Source of the DNA: an uncultured Pelagibacteraceae bacterium
Lineage (GTDB): Bacteria; Pseudomonadota; Alphaproteobacteria; Pelagibacterales; Pelagibacteraceae
Direction of reading: 5' to 3'
Length of the DNA: 57,386 nucleotides
Assembly: GCA_902624185.1 (NCBI GenBank)
Contig: CACNWU010000005.1
Span: forward strand, 1 to 57,386
Part shown: positions 4,667 to 47,427 of the stretch, piece by piece
Position numbering within the stretch: the first letter of the stretch is position 1
How the letters are laid out: each line of letters opens with the position of its first letter
The notes under the pieces: model-generated
Told to the model about the DNA's origin: nothing
Databases searched by the model: none
The model's input: only the letters and a program-made list of their open reading frames with translations
Position numbers and translations under genes: made by a program

Positions 4667-7664
4667 TTAATCTTTTATTCTCCTTGTCTAAAAAAACAGG
4701 GTCTGCGACAGTTACATTAATATTCTTTTTTTCCATTGGAATTATCAATTTTTGACCCATCATATTTTTTCCACCTTTAACAACACCTAAAGCAATAGAT
4801 TTTTTAAGATTAGGACTGTAGTAACTTGATGTAACATGACCCAGCATTTCAATAGGAGATTTATCTACATTTGCTACTATTTGAGCACCTTCCTCTAATA
4901 CTTCATCTGGGTTTTCTGTTAATAGACCTACAAGCTGTTTTCTGTCTTCTCTAATAGTGTCAGATCTGTATAAAGATCTTTTTCCTATAAAATCATATTT
5001 TTTCTTACTCACAATCCAATCCATTTGTAAATCTATTGGAGTCATCGTTGCGTCTGTATCTTGACCAACAATTATAAATCCTTTCTCAGCTCGAAGTAAG
5101 TGCATTGTTTCAGTACCATAAGGGGTAATATCAAAGTCTTTTCCACATTCAATACATTTTTCCCAAACTGATTTTGCATAATTAGCCTGAATATTGATTT
5201 CATAACTAAGCTCACCAGTGAAACTAATTCTCATAACTCTACAATTAATTTTTCCAATTTTTGCATCTTTAAATGACATATGTGGAAAACTTTCATCTGA
5301 CAAATCTAAATCTGGTATTACTTTAGATATAATCTTTTTACTATTTGGCCCACAAACACTTACAGTAGCAAAATGATCAGTGACAGATGTTAAGTAAACG
5401 TCTAATTCTGGCCATTCAGTTTGAAGGTAATCTTCTAGTTTACTCATAACATTTGCAGCTCCACCAGTAGTAGTCGTCATTATATAATGATTTTCTCCTA
5501 ACCGAGTAGTAACTCCATCATCATAAACCATACCATCTTCATTTAGCATTAAACCATATCGACATTTACCAATTGCAAGTTTAGACCAAGCATTTGTATA
5601 AACACGGTTTAAAAATTCTGAAGCATCTGTACCTTGAATATCAATTTTACCTAAGGTTGATGCATCTAGAATACCAGCACTTTCTCTTGCTGCTTTACTT
5701 TCCCTTTGAACTGCCTGGTGCATATTTTCATTTTCTTTTGGATAGTACCAAGCTCGTTTCCATTGACCTACATTTTCAAACTTTGCATGATGTTCAACGT
5801 GCCAATTATGAATTGGAGTTTTTCTAATTATATCAAAATATTCACCAACGTTTCTTCCAACAATAGTTCCAAAAGTTAATGGTGTATAGGGTGGTCTAAA
5901 TGTTGTCGTACCTAATTCACCCATTTTTGCTCCCGCTGTTTCGGAAATTATACCAAGCGCATGCATATTACCCAATTTACCTTGGTCTGTTCCCATACCC
6001 GTTGTTGTATATCTTTTTACATGTTCAATGGATCTAAAACCTTCTCGTAAGGCTAATTTAATATCTTTAGCAGTGGCATCATTTTGATAATCTACAAAAG
6101 ATTTTGTTTTTCCTAAAACTTTATCTGATGGTAATAACCAGATGTTTCTTTTTGATTTGTTTGTTGAAGATACAATATCTAAATTATCATACTCAGTATT
6201 ATTTATATTTAAAAAATCTTTTAAAGATTTTGGAGCATTTATTAGAATTTCATCTAAAGTAAAATCCCCATTACAAGAACCTATACTTAATTGATCTGAG
6301 GAATAAATATTTGGAATAAATACTTGATCCTCTTCTCTAAATTTTAATTTTCCACCAGATTGAGTAAATAAATGTACTGCTGGAGTCCATCCACCTGAAA
6401 TTCCAAGACAATCACAAGATAGATTTATTCTAGAACCCACAACTTTTTGTCCATCTTTAGATAATTTTTTTATGGAAATTTTATTTATTCTTTTGTAACC
6501 GAAGGTGTTGATTACTGTGAAGCCTTTGAAAATCTTAATATTATTTTTTTCCACCTCATATAGCAATTTTGATTCAACTTCTTCTCTATTATCAATTATA
6601 GCTTCAACATTAATTCCTTTTTGAATTAAGCTAATTGCAGTTTCATAAGCGCTATCGTTATTTGTTAAAAGGATATTTTTTTCGCCAGTGGCAACTCCAA
6701 AAAAATCAGCATAACTCTTAATTGCAGATGATAGTAAAATTCCAGGACGATCGTTATTATCAAATATCATTGGTCTTTCTATTGACCCAGTAGCAGTAAT
6801 AACTTTTTTTGCTCTTATTTTAAGTAGTCTATGTCTTATTTTATTTTTTCTTTGATCAATAGGCAAATGATCAGTAAGATTTTCACGAGCTAACAAAAAA
6901 TTATAACCATGATAAGCAGCAACACTTGTTCTTATTTTTATCTCTAAATTTTTTAATTTCTTAATTTCATTTATTTCTTTCTCCAACCATGAACTTGAAG
7001 TTTGATTATTAATTTTGAAGTAATCAGTTTTCTGGTAAATTGTTGATCCTCCAAGGTATGGTTTTTCATCAACTAGAAGAGTTTTAAAGCCATTTTTAGC
7101 AGCTGTTTTTGCTGCTAAGACACCTGAAATACCTGATCCTACGACTAACACATCACAATGAATATATTTATGCTCATATATATCTGGATCTGGTTCAGTG
7201 GGCGACTTTCCTAATCCAGCTGATCTTCTTATGAAATATTCGTATTTTTCCCAAAAACTAGCAGGCCACATAAAAGTTTTATAATAAAAACCTGCTGGCA
7301 GTAATGGTGATAAAAAATTATTTATTCCGCCAATATCAAACTTTACACTTGGCCAACAATTCTGACTTGATGCCTCTAAACCTTCATAAATTTCCACTTC
7401 AGTTGCTCTAACATTTGGTTCTGTTCTAGATGAATTGTCATGAAGTTGAACAATAGCATTGGGCTCCTCAGAACCAGCGGTCATAATACCTCTAGGTCTA
7501 TGATATTTAAAACTTCTACCAACTAAGTGAACATCATTTGCTAAGAGAGCAGATGAAAGAGTGTCTCCTTTAAATCCATAATAAGTTGATCCATTAAATT
7601 TAAAAGAAATTCTATAAGTCTCATCTATAAATTTTCCAGATTTAACTCTCAAATTTTTTGTCAT
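4659..7664 (-). CDS. soxA: Sarcosine oxidase alpha subunit
   Basis: 1001 residues, full length. An N-terminal fer2_4-like domain (about 1-100) contains SFKYHRPRGIMTAGSEEPNA. An FAD/NAD domain begins at VVGSGISGVLAAK (GSGISG at 176-181), and the C-terminal half (about 610-1001) is a GcvT-like tetrahydrofolate-binding domain with AGILDASTLGKIDIQG and GELSYEI. The subunit takes electrons and the methylene group from the beta-subunit site and transfers the C1 unit to tetrahydrofolate as 5,10-methylene-THF. It lies 3 bases downstream of soxD and overlaps soxG by 8 bases, in a single operon. The product glycine and C1 unit feed GlyA, encoded further along. Confidence 0.96.
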   Translation of the reverse strand: MTKNLRVKSGKFIDETYRISFKFNGSTYYGFKGDTLSSALLANDVHLVGRSFKYHRPRGIMTAGSEEPNAIVQLHDNSSRTEPNVRATEVEIYEGLEASSQNCWPSVKFDIGGINNFLSPLLPAGFYYKTFMWPASFWEKYEYFIRRSAGLGKSPTEPDPDIYEHKYIHCDVLVVGSGISGVLAAKTAAKNGFKTLLVDEKPYLGGSTIYQKTDYFKINNQTSSSWLEKEINEIKKLKNLEIKIRTSVAAYHGYNFLLARENLTDHLPIDQRKNKIRHRLLKIRAKKVITATGSIERPMIFDNNDRPGILLSSAIKSYADFFGVATGEKNILLTNNDSAYETAISLIQKGINVEAIIDNREEVESKLLYEVEKNNIKIFKGFTVINTFGYKRINKISIKKLSKDGQKVVGSRINLSCDCLGISGGWTPAVHLFTQSGGKLKFREEDQVFIPNIYSSDQLSIGSCNGDFTLDEILINAPKSLKDFLNINNTEYDNLDIVSSTNKSKRNIWLLPSDKVLGKTKSFVDYQNDATAKDIKLALREGFRSIEHVKRYTTTGMGTDQGKLGNMHALGIISETAGAKMGELGTTTFRPPYTPLTFGTIVGRNVGEYFDIIRKTPIHNWHVEHHAKFENVGQWKRAWYYPKENENMHQAVQRESKAARESAGILDASTLGKIDIQGTDASEFLNRVYTNAWSKLAIGKCRYGLMLNEDGMVYDDGVTTRLGENHYIMTTTTGGAANVMSKLEDYLQTEWPELDVYLTSVTDHFATVSVCGPNSKKIISKVIPDLDLSDESFPHMSFKDAKIGKINCRVMRISFTGELSYEINIQANYAKSVWEKCIECGKDFDITPYGTETMHLLRAEKGFIIVGQDTDATMTPIDLQMDWIVSKKKYDFIGKRSLYRSDTIREDRKQLVGLLTENPDEVLEEGAQIVANVDKSPIEMLGHVTSSYYSPNLKKSIALGVVKGGKNMMGQKLIIPMEKKNINVTVADPVFLDKENKRLNA

Positions 7665-40990: not shown

Positions 40991-41260
40991 CTAAATCGCT
41001 ACCTTTTCAGATCTAAGTAATTTAAGCTTTTGCCTAATTCCACCTCTCCCAGAGTAGCCACCAAGGGCTCCATCGGACCTAATCACTCTATGACAGGGTA
41101 TTTTTGGAGAATATGGGTTTTTAGCACAAGCATTAGCTACAGCACGAGCCGATTTAGGGCTTTTTATGCCAATAGCCACTTGTTTATAGGTTTTTACCTT
41201 ACCTCTTGGTATAGTTTTAAGATATTTCCAGACTTTTAATTGAAATTTCGTTCCCTGCAC
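40991..41260 (-). CDS. Short methylated-DNA-protein-cysteine methyltransferase (DNA-binding domain only)
   Basis: 89 residues from a GTG start; a stop codon directly precedes the GTG, so it cannot be longer. It contains only the C-terminal Ogt/MGMT domain: the helix-turn-helix GKVKTYKQVAIGI, the Arg finger region SARAVANACAKNP and the active site IPCHRVI with Cys56, then GGYSGRGGIRQKL. It should remove O6-alkyl groups from guanine in a suicide reaction. Because the acceptor Cys is present it is not a classical ATL protein, in which Trp or Ala replaces it. It lies 6 bases downstream of the small membrane protein gene. Confidence 0.85.
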   Translation of the reverse strand: MQGTKFQLKVWKYLKTIPRGKVKTYKQVAIGIKSPKSARAVANACAKNPYSPKIPCHRVIRSDGALGGYSGRGGIRQKLKLLRSEKVAI

Positions 41261-41463: not shown

Positions 41464-41492
41464 TTGACATAAAAATTCACCTATTATATAAC
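41464..41492 (+). promoter_or_regulatory. Sigma-70-type promoter of the recombinase gene
   Basis: A perfect TTGACA (41464-41469) and TATAAC (41487-41492) are separated by 17 bases, the optimum. Transcription should start near 41499, within the palindrome at 41493-41517, giving a leader of about 24 bases. This is the best -35/-10 pair seen in the window. Confidence 0.7.
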
Positions 41493-41517
41493 TTCCGATA
41501 ATTAATGGTTATCGGAA
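41493..41517. promoter_or_regulatory. dif-like palindrome (9-bp arms, 7-bp spacer) over the recombinase transcription start
   Basis: TTCCGATAA (41493-41501), spacer TTAATGG (41502-41508), TTATCGGAA (41509-41517). The arms are perfect inverted repeats; three bases further out they still match with one mismatch. Inner ends GATAA...TTATC resemble the CATAA...TTATG inner ends of Xer dif sites, and the spacer is in the 6-8 bp range of tyrosine recombinase cores. It could be a recombination site, an autoregulatory operator, or both. The palindrome is seen directly; the role is inferred. Confidence 0.55.
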
Positions 41518-41522
41518 ATTAA

Positions 41523-42476
41523 ATGAATAAATTGTTAACAGATCTAAAAAGCTTAGAATTAGAAACATTAAAAAATTTAAAAAATTCTAAATCGAATAAT
41601 ACATTAAGAGCCTATCAATCAGACTTTAAAGATTTTTCATCTTTCTGTGCTAAAAATGGTTTTACTTCAATCCCAACACAACCAAAAATTATTGCTTTAT
41701 ACCTAACTAGTTTGTCTAAATTAGCTAAATTTAGTACTTTAAAACGAAGAATAGCCTCAATAAGCGTAATTCATAAGTTAAAAGGGCATTATTTAGATAC
41801 AAAACATCCTATAATTATGGAGAATTTACATGGAATTAAAAGAACTTTAGGCTCAAGACAGAAAGCCAAAAAACCTATATTAATCAATGATTTAAAATTA
41901 ATTATTAATGCAATAAATGAAGATAAAATAAGTGCTAAAAATTTAGTTGAAAGTAAAATTAAAGGCCTAATTAAGCTTAGAGATAAGGCTTTAATACTAA
42001 TTGGTTTTGCAGGTGGATTTAGAAGATCAGAGTTGGTGAATATTGATTACGAGGATTTAGAATTTGTAACTGAAGGTGTTAAAATATTAATTAAGAGATC
42101 TAAAACAGATCAATCAGGAGAGGGAATTATAAAAGCTATCCCCTACTTCGATAATAAAGAATTTTGCCCAGTTATAGCTCTTAAAAATTATATCAAATAC
42201 AAATTTTCTAGCAATAAGGGTGGAAAAGTTTTTGAAATTTCAGATAAATCAGTAGCTTTAATAATTAAAAAATACGCAGAAAGGTCTGGTTTAGATTCAT
42301 CTAAATATGCAGGACATAGTTTAAGATCTGGTTTTGCAACAACAGCAGCTGAATTTGGAGCTGAAGAAAGAAATATAATGGCAATGACAGGTCATAAAAC
42401 TACACAAATGGTTAGAAGATATATCCAGGAGGCAAATTTATTCAAAAATAATGCTTTAAATAAGATAAAGATTTAA
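41523..42476 (+). CDS. Tyrosine site-specific recombinase/integrase
   Basis: 317 residues. The N-terminal SAM-like DNA-binding domain (about 5-110) has NTLRAYQSDFKDFSSFC. The catalytic domain (about 115-305) shows Arg168 in GGFRRSELVNI, Lys194 in KRSKTDQSG, His265 and Arg268 in GHSLRSGFAT, His291 in MTGHKTTQMV and the nucleophile Tyr300 in RRYIQEA. All catalytic residues are present, so it should be active. It is too divergent to call XerC or XerD. The GT gene begins one base after its stop. It starts 5 bases after the dif-like palindrome, which overlaps its promoter. Confidence 0.93.
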   Translation: MNKLLTDLKSLELETLKNLKNSKSNNTLRAYQSDFKDFSSFCAKNGFTSIPTQPKIIALYLTSLSKLAKFSTLKRRIASISVIHKLKGHYLDTKHPIIMENLHGIKRTLGSRQKAKKPILINDLKLIINAINEDKISAKNLVESKIKGLIKLRDKALILIGFAGGFRRSELVNIDYEDLEFVTEGVKILIKRSKTDQSGEGIIKAIPYFDNKEFCPVIALKNYIKYKFSSNKGGKVFEISDKSVALIIKKYAERSGLDSSKYAGHSLRSGFATTAAEFGAEERNIMAMTGHKTTQMVRRYIQEANLFKNNALNKIKI

Positions 42477-42477
42477 A

Positions 42478-43326
42478 ATGAAGAACTTATTAACTGTTGT
42501 AATACCATCATATAAATCTGGAACAAAAATACATAAACATGTGCAAAATATTTCCAAAAAAATTAAAATAATAATAATAGAAAATTCACAAGATAAAGAA
42601 TTAAAAAAAAGATTAGAGAAAAAAAATAGAAATGTGAAAGTTTATTTACAAAATAATATCGGTTATGGAAGAGCTATAAATTATGGAGCCAAATTTGTAA
42701 AAACAAAATTTTTTTTTGTAATAAATCCTGACACAAAAATTTTTAAAGAAACTTTAAAAAATTTAGTAATTGCAGGTACAAAGATTAAAAAATTTGGTGC
42801 AATAAGTCCTAAATTATATGGAAAAAAAGAAAAGAAGATTAAAAAATTGATTAAACTTGAAAAAACACTCAATGGTGGTGCTATGTTTTTTAAAACAAAA
42901 ATATTTAAAAGCATAAATGGATTTGATGAAAATATATTTCTTTATTATGAAGATAATGATTACTTTACCAAATGCCGAATTAAAAAGTTAAAACTTTATA
43001 CAGCATTAAATGCTTATTTTTATCATAAAAAAAAGGGAAGCTCTTCAGCAACATTTAAGAATTCTCAAGAAAAAAATTATGCTGATTTAATTAATGCATG
43101 GCATGGACAATGGTCCAAGTTTTATTATATAAAGAAATATAATGGTTACCTTTATAGTTATATGAAAGGTGTACCACGATTGTTTTTATTGATAATTCAA
43201 TTAATTTTGAATTCAATAATTAACATAAAAAAAACAAAATATATCTATTTCAAGATAGAAGGTCTTTTTTGCTCCATGATTGGTATCAAATCTTTCAAAA
43301 GGACTAAATATGATCAAAACTCATAA
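42478..43326 (+). CDS. Family 2 glycosyltransferase (rhamnosyltransferase-like)
   Basis: 282 residues. A GT-A fold N-terminus (TVVIPSYKSGTKIHKHVQNI), then NNIGYGRAINYGAKF, FFFVINPDTKIF with the DxD-type acidic pair, and GGAMFFKTKIFKSINGFDEN followed by LYYEDNDYFTKCR. This resembles rhamnosyltransferase-like GT2 enzymes of surface polysaccharide synthesis. The C-terminal region is Lys-rich with one hydrophobic stretch. It begins one base after the recombinase stop and probably shares its promoter. Its end overlaps the convergent reductase gene by 13 bases. Confidence 0.85.
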   Translation: MKNLLTVVIPSYKSGTKIHKHVQNISKKIKIIIIENSQDKELKKRLEKKNRNVKVYLQNNIGYGRAINYGAKFVKTKFFFVINPDTKIFKETLKNLVIAGTKIKKFGAISPKLYGKKEKKIKKLIKLEKTLNGGAMFFKTKIFKSINGFDENIFLYYEDNDYFTKCRIKKLKLYTALNAYFYHKKKGSSSATFKNSQEKNYADLINAWHGQWSKFYYIKKYNGYLYSYMKGVPRLFLLIIQLILNSIINIKKTKYIYFKIEGLFCSMIGIKSFKRTKYDQNS

Positions 43327-44165
43327 TTATTTTTTAGCATAAAATTTTTCAATTCTTTTACTAAAATTGTCCAGGATTTAACCTTGTAATTGGTTAATTT
43401 TTGAAATTTTTTCGAATTAAGAGATCTATCAATTTTAAAATCTTTAAATTTAATAATATCTATCTTTTTTTTGAATATTTTTTTAATAATTATTAAAAGA
43501 TTATATTTTGAAATCTTTTTGCCACCAACATGTAAAACGTCGTTATATAGATTATTTTTTTTAATAAAAAATTTGAAGATAATTTTAGATAATTCAAGAG
43601 ATGTTAGACCTGAAAAAAAAGCATTTGTATAACCTGTTGTTGAGTTAGATTGAGATAAAAACCAATTAAGAAGAGATTTATTGCCATTCTTCTCAGGTCC
43701 AATAAATGAAGTTCTGATTGTAGTAGAAAATTTATTTTTAACTTCTCCAAGGTTTTTACTCAAACCATATAGATCTTTGGCGTCTTTTTTCGAATTTTCT
43801 TTATAATTGCCTTTAGTTCCCAAGAAAACACAATCAGTACTTATATGAAGAAAATAGATTTTTTCTTTAAAACAAAGATTAGACAAAAAAATTGGTAATT
43901 TGATATTAATTTTTTTTGTTACTTTTTTATTTTTATAAGATTCATGAAATTTAGTCACACCTAAACAATTTATTATATAATTTGGATTTATCTTAAGAAT
44001 TAAATCTTTTAGTTTTCTATAGTTTGAGAAATCCTTTAAATAATAATAATCTTTATTTAAATTTTTTCTTCTGGATATATAAAAAAGTTTTATTTTTTTT
44101 GTTTTAAGATATTTAACTAATGAACTTCCTAATATACCTGTAGATCCGAGTATAAGTACTTTCAT
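43314..44165 (-). CDS. RmlD-like NAD(P)-dependent sugar-nucleotide reductase
   Basis: 283 residues, an extended SDR of the dTDP-4-dehydrorhamnose reductase type. It has VLILGSTGILGSSLVKYL (GxxGxxG), INPNYIINCLGVT, HISTDCVFLGTKGNY and the catalytic Tyr/Lys in DLYGLSKNLGE. It should reduce a 4-keto sugar nucleotide to supply a sugar donor for the adjacent glycosyltransferases. The other rml genes are not in the window, so the exact sugar is unknown. It begins two bases after the GT2 gene upstream on the same strand. Confidence 0.82.
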   Translation of the reverse strand: MKVLILGSTGILGSSLVKYLKTKKIKLFYISRRKNLNKDYYYLKDFSNYRKLKDLILKINPNYIINCLGVTKFHESYKNKKVTKKINIKLPIFLSNLCFKEKIYFLHISTDCVFLGTKGNYKENSKKDAKDLYGLSKNLGEVKNKFSTTIRTSFIGPEKNGNKSLLNWFLSQSNSTTGYTNAFFSGLTSLELSKIIFKFFIKKNNLYNDVLHVGGKKISKYNLLIIIKKIFKKKIDIIKFKDFKIDRSLNSKKFQKLTNYKVKSWTILVKELKNFMLKNNYEF

Positions 44166-44167
44166 AA

Positions 44168-45025
44168 TTAATAAAAAAATTTGAGATAAAGATAGTTGAA
44201 TTTACAAATTATTAAATCAATATAATATGATACTGATTTTTTTGGTTCACTTAAAGGTGATATATATTTTATGTCTGAATTAAGATAATATTTTTTAAAA
44301 AATTTAATTGATATTTTCCATTTTAATAAGAAAATCTTACCACCTTTACTTCCAGATTCTGTTTTTATTGTTGGATGATTTTTATATTTACGTGTAACTA
44401 TTGATCCAAAATGATATACTTTGCAATTATTGAGACCTTTAAAGACCCTCACCCCTTCATTCCACAATTTCATATTTAAATCTGGATCTGATCCAGTACC
44501 TGGAAAAAATTCTTCACTAAATCCCCCAACTTTATTCCATAAATCTTTATGTATTAAATGTGGAGCCCAAGTTGATCCTTGAAAATCATAAAGATTATAA
44601 TTTTTATATTCATTAAGTAATCTTTTTTCGTCAAAATCATTTATGCTATTTCCACAATTAAATTTAATAGGACCATTATTCATCATTATTCCAGATAAAT
44701 AAAAGTTATTATGTCCAATTTTATCTACCTCCTCTCTCATTATTTTGTCCCAACCTGGACAAAAATAAAAATCATCATGAGCATATAAAATATATTCAAA
44801 TTTAGCTTTTTTTGCAGCCAAATTCATTCCTTTACATATACCAGCGTTATCATTCGTATATGTGTGATCAATATTATTTTTATCTAAGTAAGTTTTTGTT
44901 CCATCTTCACCAACATTGACATGTGGTATTATTTGATGTTTGTATGTGGAGTTTTTGTCAATACTTTTTAGACATAATTTGAGATAATCTAAATTATTGA
45001 ATGTTGGGATGATAATTGAAAACAT
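44168..45025 (-). CDS. Family 2 glycosyltransferase
   Basis: 285 residues. The N-terminus FSIIIPTFNNLDYLKLCLKS is the GT2 nucleotide-binding start, followed by NAGICKGMNLAAKKAKFEY and the metal-binding ILYAHDDFYFCPGWD. LIHKDLWNKVGGFSEEFF and the acidic SDPDLNMKLWNEGVRVF supply the acceptor-side and catalytic Asp. It is one base from the large GT upstream and two bases from the reductase downstream, forming a minus-strand polysaccharide unit. Acceptor and sugar unknown. Confidence 0.87.
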   Translation of the reverse strand: MFSIIIPTFNNLDYLKLCLKSIDKNSTYKHQIIPHVNVGEDGTKTYLDKNNIDHTYTNDNAGICKGMNLAAKKAKFEYILYAHDDFYFCPGWDKIMREEVDKIGHNNFYLSGIMMNNGPIKFNCGNSINDFDEKRLLNEYKNYNLYDFQGSTWAPHLIHKDLWNKVGGFSEEFFPGTGSDPDLNMKLWNEGVRVFKGLNNCKVYHFGSIVTRKYKNHPTIKTESGSKGGKIFLLKWKISIKFFKKYYLNSDIKYISPLSEPKKSVSYYIDLIICKFNYLYLKFFY

Positions 45026-47143
45026 TTATTTAATATTTTCCCAATAGTATCTCTTATTTAACCCAAAAGATTTATTCAATATAAATTCAGCAACTTCAGT
45101 TGAATTAAAATATTTGAAATATTTATCTCTGCCCTTTCTTGCAATTTTATTTCTAAGATTATGATCATTTGTAAATTTTATTATCTTTTCAGATAAATCA
45201 GATTTATTTTTGTATAAAACAATTTCATCTTTATTAAAAAAATTTCCAATTTTAGTATTTTCATCAATCATTACTAATAGTCCATTTCCAATTAATTGAG
45301 AAAATCTGTCACTACTATAATATTTTGCTGGTTTTCCTTGACTTAAATTTAATCCAATTTTTGATTGTGATATTGCAATTAAGTAATCATCTGCCCATAG
45401 TGGCTGAATGTTATTCATTCCATATAAATCAAATCTTACATTAGGTGTTATTTTCATAAGATTGTTAATAAAAATTTCTCGCTGATCAAATTTACCTTTT
45501 TTGAGAACCCCTCGATGAACCCCATGGCTCATTGCAAAAAAAACATCGTTATTAAAGTATTTATTATTGTAATTTTCAAGGGTTTCAAAAGATAAATCAA
45601 CAGGATTTGGCATATAAAAAACATTATGTTTTTTATTTAGTTTTAATGATTTTGGGTCTGTTGTACAAAAACTAGCATCCATTAAATCAATTTTATCAAG
45701 GAACCTACTCTTGTTATTTAACCATTGACTGTCCATTCTATCTAAAAACCATTGTGCCATTTTAATATTTGGATAATTTTTTTTAATATAATCAAGAGTG
45801 TCTTTTTTAATCAAATCTGCATGTCCCAATATTAAAATATCTGGTACATAATTTGAGATCACTTCAAGTAATTTCTTATTGAGTCTCTTTGAACCATTTA
45901 AATCATTTATATTTCTATAATAGCTAACAATATCGCGATCACTAAATTCTAGAACACTATGATTTAATCTTACGAAACCATTATTAATTCTTTTCCCAGT
46001 ATTATAAAATAATCTTCCATTATGACGTTCATTAAAGTTTGTTACATGAAGAATCTTAAGTTTCTTAATGTTATTTTTTTTGTTAAAATTTAAAATAAAT
46101 TTTCCATATATTTCTTCTCTATAATTATCAATTTTATTACAAATGTATCGATCTGTAAGATGAAAGTTTTTGTAAGACTCTTTTTGTAGATATTGTAATT
46201 TTTTTTTATCTAAAATTAAATTTTCTATTGCTTTAAATAAGGTAAGAGAGTCTAAATTTCGTAAAATTACTCCATTTGTAATTGTTTCAGGCAAGCCACC
46301 TCGATTAGAAATTATAACAGCACATCCTCTACTAGCTGCTTCTAAACTAGTTCTTCCAAAGGGTTCTTCCCATCTAGAGCAAGCAACTGCAATACTAGTT
46401 TTAGAAAAAGTTTCCAAAACTTTTTTATGATTTTGAAAACCTAAATTTTTTAGATTCTTATGAAATAATTGAATTTTTTCACGAGGCTCATCACCTATAA
46501 CTAAAGATTTCCAATCTGAGTATTTATCTAAAATTTTTGTTACAGCATTTCCAAAAATGTCATAACCTTTTGCTGAGTTTAATTTTCCTACAAAAGTAAT
46601 TAATTTTTCTTTATTTCTAAAATTAATTTTTGATTTATTGGTAGATTGATGAATTACTTCAAGTTTTTTTGATTTATGGTAAAAATTTTTAAGATCTTTA
46701 AGAAATTGTCTTTTTGACCATTCGCTATTAAATATTATCTTTGAACATGTATTTAATAAATCAATTCTTTCTTGGACAGTTTTAGAGCCAATCATACTCA
46801 CTGGATCATTATGAAAATATAAAACTAATTTAGTCTCAAGTTGCGTTAAATTTTTGATATAAACTGGTCGGTTATGAATTTCAATAATATCAGGCTTATT
46901 TTTTTTTTGAATTTCTAAAAACTTTTCAACATATTCTTTTGACTGACTTCTCAAAATTTTTTTTGAAAGATGTATATTCACATAATTTTTCGCTAATTTT
47001 CTTTTATGATTAGTTGAGCCAAATACAGTTAAACTTTTTCTATATTTACTAACATTATTTGTTGAATTAACAAAAATAGATACAGCACCTGGATAATTTG
47101 GTGAGTAATTTTCTTTATAAGGTAATAAAATAGAAATCTTCAT
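45026..47143 (-). CDS. Two-domain glycosyltransferase (GT4-like plus CgeB/GT4-like)
   Basis: 705 residues made of two GT-B units. The first (about 1-360) has a GT4 pattern: IIEIHNRPVYIKNLTQLETK, IIFNSEWSKRQFL, LITFVGKLNSAKGYDIFG, and CSRWEEPFGRTSLEAASRG with the donor-binding Glu pair. The second (about 370-705) starts LKILHVTNFNERHNGRLFYN and has ALDRM-like QWFLDRMDSQWLN and a C-terminal RFSQLIGNGLLVMIDEN resembling CgeB/GT1_2 domains. It may add two sugars in sequence (inference). The 3' end touches the next GT gene; the 5' end overlaps the GIY-YIG gene by 4 bases. Confidence 0.82.
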   Translation of the reverse strand: MKISILLPYKENYSPNYPGAVSIFVNSTNNVSKYRKSLTVFGSTNHKRKLAKNYVNIHLSKKILRSQSKEYVEKFLEIQKKNKPDIIEIHNRPVYIKNLTQLETKLVLYFHNDPVSMIGSKTVQERIDLLNTCSKIIFNSEWSKRQFLKDLKNFYHKSKKLEVIHQSTNKSKINFRNKEKLITFVGKLNSAKGYDIFGNAVTKILDKYSDWKSLVIGDEPREKIQLFHKNLKNLGFQNHKKVLETFSKTSIAVACSRWEEPFGRTSLEAASRGCAVIISNRGGLPETITNGVILRNLDSLTLFKAIENLILDKKKLQYLQKESYKNFHLTDRYICNKIDNYREEIYGKFILNFNKKNNIKKLKILHVTNFNERHNGRLFYNTGKRINNGFVRLNHSVLEFSDRDIVSYYRNINDLNGSKRLNKKLLEVISNYVPDILILGHADLIKKDTLDYIKKNYPNIKMAQWFLDRMDSQWLNNKSRFLDKIDLMDASFCTTDPKSLKLNKKHNVFYMPNPVDLSFETLENYNNKYFNNDVFFAMSHGVHRGVLKKGKFDQREIFINNLMKITPNVRFDLYGMNNIQPLWADDYLIAISQSKIGLNLSQGKPAKYYSSDRFSQLIGNGLLVMIDENTKIGNFFNKDEIVLYKNKSDLSEKIIKFTNDHNLRNKIARKGRDKYFKYFNSTEVAEFILNKSFGLNKRYYWENIK

Positions 47144-47427
47144 CTAATATAAATTAATGAATTGAATTTTTTTTTTAAATAATCATTTTTTATTTTTAAT
47201 CTTAATTTATAATTTTTTTTTAATTTATACTCTTCCTTCATAGCTTTTGTTTTTGACGAATATTTGTTCGAGTAAATTAAAATCCACTTTTTCCCTTTTG
47301 TAAATTTTGCACCTTTTGAATTATTATGCAACATAAGACGTTTGGAAGGATTTGAAGAATACCCTACATAACTTATATGTTTATTTTTGATTTTAGCTAA
47401 AATCATATAAACAAAATATTTGGGCAT
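47140..47427 (-). CDS. GIY-YIG domain protein (UPF0213/YhbQ-like)
   Basis: 95 residues. The domain shows FVYMILAKI (the GIY strand, altered), HISYVGYSSNPSKRLMLHN (YIG strand and Arg), a Lys-rich KGAKFTKGKKWILIY and the conserved Glu in MKEEYKLKK. Single-domain members are of uncertain function and may nick branched DNA. Its ATG lies only 4 bases after the CCA end of tRNA-Glu on the same strand, so its mRNA is probably released by tRNA 3' processing without a leader. Confidence 0.85.
   Translation of the reverse strand: MPKYFVYMILAKIKNKHISYVGYSSNPSKRLMLHNNSKGAKFTKGKKWILIYSNKYSSKTKAMKEEYKLKKNYKLRLKIKNDYLKKKFNSLIYIR

Follow-up and report, generated by a model that had tools for sequence, protein, structure and literature searches.

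A predicted single-recombinase dif/Xer module in SAR11 bacteria, with copies of its site in pelagiphages

The locus described here lies in a 57,386-nucleotide stretch of DNA from an uncultured Pelagibacteraceae bacterium (SAR11), referred to below as the window. A dif-like palindrome overlaps the promoter of a tyrosine recombinase gene, and a glycosyltransferase gene follows the recombinase after a single base. This arrangement raises the question of whether the palindrome switches the genes behind it, regulates them, or has a role for the chromosome as a whole. From comparisons of sequences we consider it very likely that palindrome and recombinase form a single-recombinase dif/Xer module of SAR11, in which the palindrome is the chromosome dif site. 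This reading draws on computed features, namely conservation, single copy, position at the terminus, the absence of XerC/XerD, the match between arm type and recombinase type, and an FtsK with a gamma domain; from these we infer binding, strand exchange, dimer resolution, FtsK dependence and autoregulation.

The locus and its recombinase

The features of the locus are listed below, with the source of each assignment in brackets.

40991–41260, minus strand: ogt-like methylguanine methyltransferase (DNA_binding_1), on the conserved upstream side (Pfam)
41464–41469, plus strand: -35 element TTGACA of the recombinase promoter (sequence)
41487–41492, plus strand: -10 element TATAAC, which abuts the dif-like site (sequence)
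41493–41517, no strand assigned: dif-like palindrome of type A, TTCCGATAA-TTAATGG-TTATCGGAA, with the left arm TTCCGATAA at 41493–41501, the 7-bp centre TTAATGG at 41502–41508 and the right arm TTATCGGAA at 41509–41517 (sequence and conservation)
41523–42476, plus strand: Xer-like tyrosine recombinase, 317 aa (Pfam)
42231–42236, plus strand: place, after F237, at which type-B recombinases carry 12 additional residues, absent in the window recombinase (alignment)
42478–43326, plus strand: GT2-family glycosyltransferase, 282 aa, an accessory neighbour that opens the variable region and lies outside the module (Pfam)

The two promoter elements are separated by a 17-bp spacer. Five bases (ATTAA) lead from the palindrome to the recombinase ATG at 41523, and a single base separates the TAA stop of the recombinase from the GT2 open reading frame (Glycos_transf_2, E 2.4e-8). 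All of these elements, from the promoter to the intact recombinase gene and the GT2 gene one base on, had been described in the original prediction and were confirmed at their positions. The earlier impression that the site occurs in only one full copy was likewise borne out, as the arm pattern, searched at up to three mismatches, has one match in the whole window, compared to a mean of 0.07 over 100 shuffles.

Conservation of the neighbourhood is confined to the upstream side. Among 150 recombinase loci, tblastn matched the ogt-like gene in 121 (at a median of 0.8 kb ahead of the recombinase start), an AEC-like gene in 104 and an EamA-like gene in 102, but the GT2 gene of the window in only 13, which places the beginning of the variable region at dif. 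In the window, the variable stretch after the recombinase (42478–47427) is rich in glycosyltransferases (GT2, RmlD-like, GT2 and a 705-aa double glycosyltransferase), and it includes a 95-aa open reading frame (47140–47427) whose start, YFVYMILAKIKNKHISYVGYS, presumably recalls GIY-YIG nucleases. The 1-bp gap makes the proposed co-transcription of recombinase and GT2 a fair guess for the window; against it, among the 139 loci with enough downstream sequence, only 7 have the GT2 gene immediately 3′ of the recombinase, and a functional link between recombinase and glycosyltransferase was rejected on that count.

The recombinase combines a Phage_integrase domain (PF00589, E 4.3e-18) with a SAM-like N-terminal domain (PF02899, E 0.00017). 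Alignment to XerD and XerA places its catalytic set at R167 (or R168), K194, H265, R268, H291 and Y300, and these six residues (seven positions) are invariant in all 150 loci. The curated models of known Xer subfamilies score it below their cut-offs: 70.9 bits for XerD (cut-off 329.6), 65 for XerC (335.15), 71 for PRK00283 (279), 60.1 for XerS (267) and 70.8 for archaeal XerA (220). Judged in this way, the window recombinase is neither XerC/XerD proper nor XerS or archaeal XerA proper, and its resemblance to Xer proteins is distant. Among solved structures, archaeal XerA and E. coli XerD come closest in sequence. A fold search matched Cre (Z about 18), XerA (Z 16.2) and XerH (Z 15.5) as well as the SroF and YopR structures; since the fold model is middling (pLDDT 74.8, and under 50 at residues 291–301), the order of Cre above XerA and XerH was not used to rank families. 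In a tree with XerC/XerD and integrases, the SAR11 recombinases form a separate clade on a long branch, with two integrases as the nearest rows, and no origin was read from this tree. As a check for a viral origin of the recombinase, two viral scans for relatives of its type-A or type-B form (defined below) returned none apart from one partial match, a fragmentary type-B relative of 41 residues with 61% identity at positions 5001–5123 of a 56-kb viral contig (L522).

The draft genome of the window (about 80% complete) yielded only one PF00589 protein. An orthologue is present in 150 of 197 Pelagibacteraceae genomes, including 69 of the 77 near-complete ones and all 11 complete (single-contig) genomes. 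It is the sole PF00589 protein in 8 of these 11, and three complete genomes (G009, G017 and G063) have one further integrase-like open reading frame each. Extra integrase-like SAR11 proteins, unlike the Xer orthologue, were read at L280 (G172), L344 (G017) and L345 (G009). Seven of the eight near-complete genomes that lack the recombinase were searched again: six (G176, G012, G019, G028, G048 and G070) have zero PF00589 proteins, and one has a different protein of 464 aa. In such genomes, dif/Xer can have been lost or the terminus can lie in an assembly gap. A protein above the cut-off of the XerC/D subfamily model occurs in 45 of 53 genomes from the sister family of the same order, mostly accompanied by another copy that scores lower, and in 159 of 190 genomes of the class at large, compared to none of 144 Pelagibacteraceae genomes, all counts across genomes that are related by descent and hence not independent. 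Pelagibacteraceae thus have one divergent recombinase where their relatives have a pair.

Conservation, copy number and chromosomal position of the site

The 150 loci consist of 30 loci (the best orthologue matches and the window), 80 among the nearest public contigs listed and 40 further matches picked by hand, and they encode 146 distinct proteins that are 51–100% identical to the window recombinase. Searching relatives for the palindrome next to orthologous recombinases had been suggested at the outset, and all 150 loci have the pattern GATAA-N7-TTATC ahead of the recombinase gene, more than chance would give. The core ends 4–20 bp before the start in 145 loci and 58–65 bp before it in the other five, where the start codon is uncertain. 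Its centre is TTAATGG in 119 loci and TTAATTG in 21, together 140 of the 150. TTGAC lies 31–34 bp before the core in 148 of the 149 loci with enough upstream sequence, from which it follows that the site overlaps the recombinase promoter everywhere, and a loose -10-like pattern was found in 146 of these 149. The palindrome is very probably the recombinase's own site, as originally proposed, in the form of a predicted dif-like core.

In a search at up to two mismatches, each of 16 genomes contains exactly one perfect 17-bp core together with a few matches at two mismatches and, rarely, at one; wherever its position was compared in these genomes, the perfect core is the copy adjoining the recombinase. 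Across the family, the perfect core is present in 288 of 397 genomes, once in each (table scored by eye), and missing in 109, including 19 of 140 near-complete genomes. The control pattern, the core written backwards, gave only a handful of matches among the 397.

The site lies opposite dnaA in all 11 complete genomes, at 0.418–0.487 of the genome length in ten and at 0.436 in the eleventh. Relative to the site, the maximum of the cumulative GC skew falls at +569 bp in G003 (400 kb contiguous), +2371 bp in G040 (260 kb) and −2851 bp in G026 (340 kb), and in the 57-kb window alone it lies 2.8 kb away. Sampled block skew also peaks near the site in G003 and G040; in G026 its peak is 33–98 kb (one to two blocks) beyond, so that in this genome the peak falls at the site only by contiguous reading and not in the coarse whole-genome skew. 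FtsK is present in 12 of 12 genomes, and that of the window genome carries an FtsK_gamma domain. The location of the site at the terminus of replication argues for a role in chromosome dimer resolution. Within 200 kb on each side of the site in G003, there are octamers with a switch in strand bias (for example AAAAGAGG, 53 to 13). These mostly A-rich octamers may be candidates for orienting FtsK, yet base skew may explain them, and we make no KOPS claim.

Five marks of a dif/Xer system can be computed, and all were found: an intact recombinase, no XerC/D, a single inverted-repeat site, a position at the terminus, and linkage of site and gene. Taken with the precedent of XerL described below, they lead us to regard the module as a new single-recombinase dif/Xer system. 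In the proposed mechanism, two recombinase monomers would bind the two arms of the palindrome. At division, the two copies of the site on a dimeric chromosome would come into contact, probably through FtsK, and the exchange of strands across the 7-bp centre would yield two chromosome monomers. Recombinase bound at the site would probably also limit its own expression, because the site overlaps its promoter. One Pelagibacteraceae enzyme appears to do the job that XerC plus XerD perform in the sister family.

Two arm types and copies of the site in pelagiphages

The sites of the 150 loci fall into two types. Type A, with the arms TTCCGATAA/TTATCGGAA, comprises 118 loci, and type B, with arms of about ACTAAYGATAA/TTATCAATAGT, comprises 32. 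Both arms are of one type in every locus (118 A/A, 32 B/B, no mixed), and a 12-residue insert before the HxxR motif is present in 32 of 32 type-B but 0 of 118 type-A recombinases. That arm type tracks recombinase type is evidence for the enzyme recognising the site. A tree of 83 recombinases shows a single change of arm type, compared to a shuffled mean of 25.6, as would be expected of a gene and site that move or evolve jointly as one cassette. Genus changes 21 times on the same tree (70 labelled rows, 12 genera), and five genera hold both types. The A/B split has a support of 87, unstarred, in a tree that joins two long type-B branches and includes the insert region.

To our knowledge, the abundant HTVC010P-type pelagiphages have been regarded as lytic or as without a known route into the chromosome. 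In viral sequences, the exact core was found in 45 stretches, flanked by at least one type-A arm in 19 and by both type-B arms in three; L283 and L321, flagged as type B by script, were discounted. Many of these core-bearing stretches encode a terminase (TerL) of the HTVC010P/HTVC106P kind. A viral scan with the arms alone found at least 120 stretches for type A and 58 for type B. Among the matches listed, 87 of the 168 arm-found loci examined have such a TerL, with the site 314–610 bp before it in 79 of the 87; 24 of the other 81 are GC-rich and look like chance or unrelated matches. Perfect TTCCGATAA-N-TTATCGGAA arms also occur in four GC-rich viral contigs (L364, L372, L378 and L381) that lack a related TerL; these may be chance matches or belong to another system. 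A site is present in 95 of 96 TerL loci with enough upstream sequence, which were picked for the site, compared to 2 of 240 shuffled regions.

Two sites less than 60 bp apart were found in 40 TerL loci among the matches listed, of which 37 are A+B and three BA|BB, with none of the same type; once identical pairs are removed, 28 of 30 are A+B and two BA|BB. Tandem A+B dif-like units about 30 bp apart before terL were seen in L346 to L356, L288, L309 and L324. The common centres of the arm-found fragments (TTAAACG, TTAAATG, TTAATCG and TTAATTG) are near the host TTAATKG.

Among named pelagiphages with a related TerL, 11 of 12 lack a PF00589 protein, and in these 11 the best site-like unit precedes terL, by eye lying 150–260 bp before the small open reading frame that precedes terL. 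Scores of the named-phage sites range from 16.3 (HTVC010P) to 28.3 (Greip); those of HTVC010P, HTVC024P and Lederberg are not above the best shuffle, so that the fixed place carries their case. The centres of the named-phage sites differ from the host centre. The integrase-bearing HTVC028P has no site in the stretches read (scores 9.0 and 9.7), the integrase phages HTVC019P and HTVC011P score 14.7 and 13.1, within noise, and the control Venkman, a methylotroph phage with a related TerL, scores 8.0. On the host side, none of the 288 genomes has a second core that would mark a prophage at dif, and the flanks read in the 150 recombinase loci contained no TerL of the HTVC010P/HTVC106P kind. Of the marks of a phage that uses the host Xer, the lack of its own integrase and a mimic of host dif were thus found, and a prophage integrated at host dif was not. 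According to the portion of the source available to us, many HTVC010P-type phages encode an integrase (PMC11094077).

We think it somewhat probable that those HTVC010P-type and HTVC106P pelagiphages that lack an integrase use their mimics of the site to have the host enzyme act on phage DNA. A more specific proposal, to which we give slightly less than an even chance, is that HTVC010P-type phages borrow the host's single Xer through dif mimics, often A+B about 30 bp apart so that either recombinase type serves, and that SAR11 lineages swap whole A/B dif-xer cassettes, with the 12-residue insert helping to set arm specificity. There is also a substantial, if smaller, chance that the phage copies are not attachment sites and instead resolve phage genome multimers or are regulatory. 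The named-phage centres fit this alternative, as their difference from the host centre would hinder host–phage but not phage–phage exchange, and so does the lack of a second core in any genome. The host-like centres of the arm-found fragments, the lack of a site in HTVC028P, which has its own integrase, and the combination of both host arm types in the tandem pairs argue against it.

Alternative readings of the site and comparison with known systems

The palindrome could be an operator only, through which the recombinase or another repressor controls the promoter while the enzyme has its recombination job elsewhere. The site does lie between the -10 element and the ATG in nearly all loci, and repressors with a tyrosine-recombinase fold exist (SroF and YopR, both among the fold matches). 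However, nothing requires an operator to lie opposite the origin at the maximum of the GC skew, the genomes contain no other perfect core for the enzyme to act on, its catalytic residues are intact in every locus, and in phages the site is found far away from recombinase genes. We therefore regard an exclusive operator as improbable; autoregulation is compatible with the dif reading, not opposed to it.

Considerably less probable still is a phase-variation or island-integration site that switches recombinase and glycosyltransferase, which the original prediction had developed into a self-controlled variation system for surface polysaccharide. The single base between recombinase and GT2 in the window and the variable, glycosyltransferase-rich region downstream would suit such a system, but switching requires two sites, and a core in single copy (16 of 16 genomes, and 288 genomes of the family) has no partner for inversion or excision within one chromosome. 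This largely refutes the proposal. The site is also near-invariant, the glycosyltransferase is not conserved beside it, phage TerL is lacking in the flanks read, and no variable insertions bounded by two copies were seen. A translation-controlling RNA hairpin in the leader of the recombinase can hardly be credited: the predicted transcription start does place the greater part of the 9-bp inverted repeat in the 5′ leader, but type-B sites keep the same mismatched half-site pair (for example TAACGATAA vs TTATCAATA) with no compensating changes, the centre is conserved, and the phage copies sit outside recombinase leaders.

The best reading of the SAR11 module is that of a new single-recombinase dif/Xer system akin to XerS/difSL, XerH/difH and XerL/dif, and distinguished by its promoter overlap and its two coupled types. 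XerL of the Legionellales is the closest precedent. In the sections of PMC9765430 available to us, it is described as the one recombinase of a lineage listed as without dif/Xer, found through a mobile element, LME-1, that carries a dif mimic, and its dif has perfect dyad arms near the GC-skew maximum. The gene neighbourhood of that dif varies in L. pneumophila (same sections of PMC9765430), whereas the SAR11 site adjoins the recombinase gene in every locus read and overlaps its promoter. SAR11 further differs in its two coupled specificity types, in a comparison with XerL made by description and not by sequence.

In Streptococcus and Lactococcus, XerS is encoded immediately beside its own terminus site as a module, as in SAR11, but the protein is 356 aa long and the centre of difSL 11 bp (PMC5357621, in part), compared to 317 aa and 7 bp here. 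In the proteobacterial Helicobacter and Campylobacter, XerH is likewise the single recombinase and is often linked to its site, difH; the protein has 354–362 aa, and its site has the unlike arms AGTTATGAAAA and AAAAGTTTGA (excerpts of PMC2731167 and PMC5357621). The likeness of XerH to the SAR11 recombinase is a fold match (Z 15.5), kinship by sequence not having been compared. The XerC/XerD-dif system of most alphaproteobacteria, including the sister family, shares with the SAR11 module a terminus site, inverted arms with ATAA/TTAT inner ends and an FtsK gamma domain, but uses two recombinases and a 6-bp centre, the usual length in dif, where SAR11 has one recombinase, a 7-bp centre and promoter overlap. 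For the phages, the nearest likeness is to VGJphi and TLCphi, which, as covered in part of PMC5357621, are Vibrio phages with no integrase of their own and a dif mimic on the phage; here, the carriers are tailed pelagiphages, which often have two neighbouring mimics that differ in arm type, and their integration is only putative.

SAR11 is among the most abundant cell groups in the ocean. A 2009 survey listed Pelagibacter ubique as without a dif/Xer system and read this as genome streamlining (PMC2731167, in the part available). Among the papers listed in the literature searched, none reports a dif/Xer system of SAR11 or SAR11 phage sites that resemble dif; some of what is described here for the phages may already be covered by Du et al. 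2021, a study of HTVC010P-type pelagiphages. If almost all of the family carries a single-recombinase module at the terminus, the 2009 statement, as given in that part of PMC2731167, would be overturned. Such a module would also add a further case of XerC/XerD yielding to one enzyme, within an order whose sister family kept the pair. In types A and B, nature would then provide two orthogonal single-recombinase/site systems, and a hypothesis for the specificity determinant is at hand.
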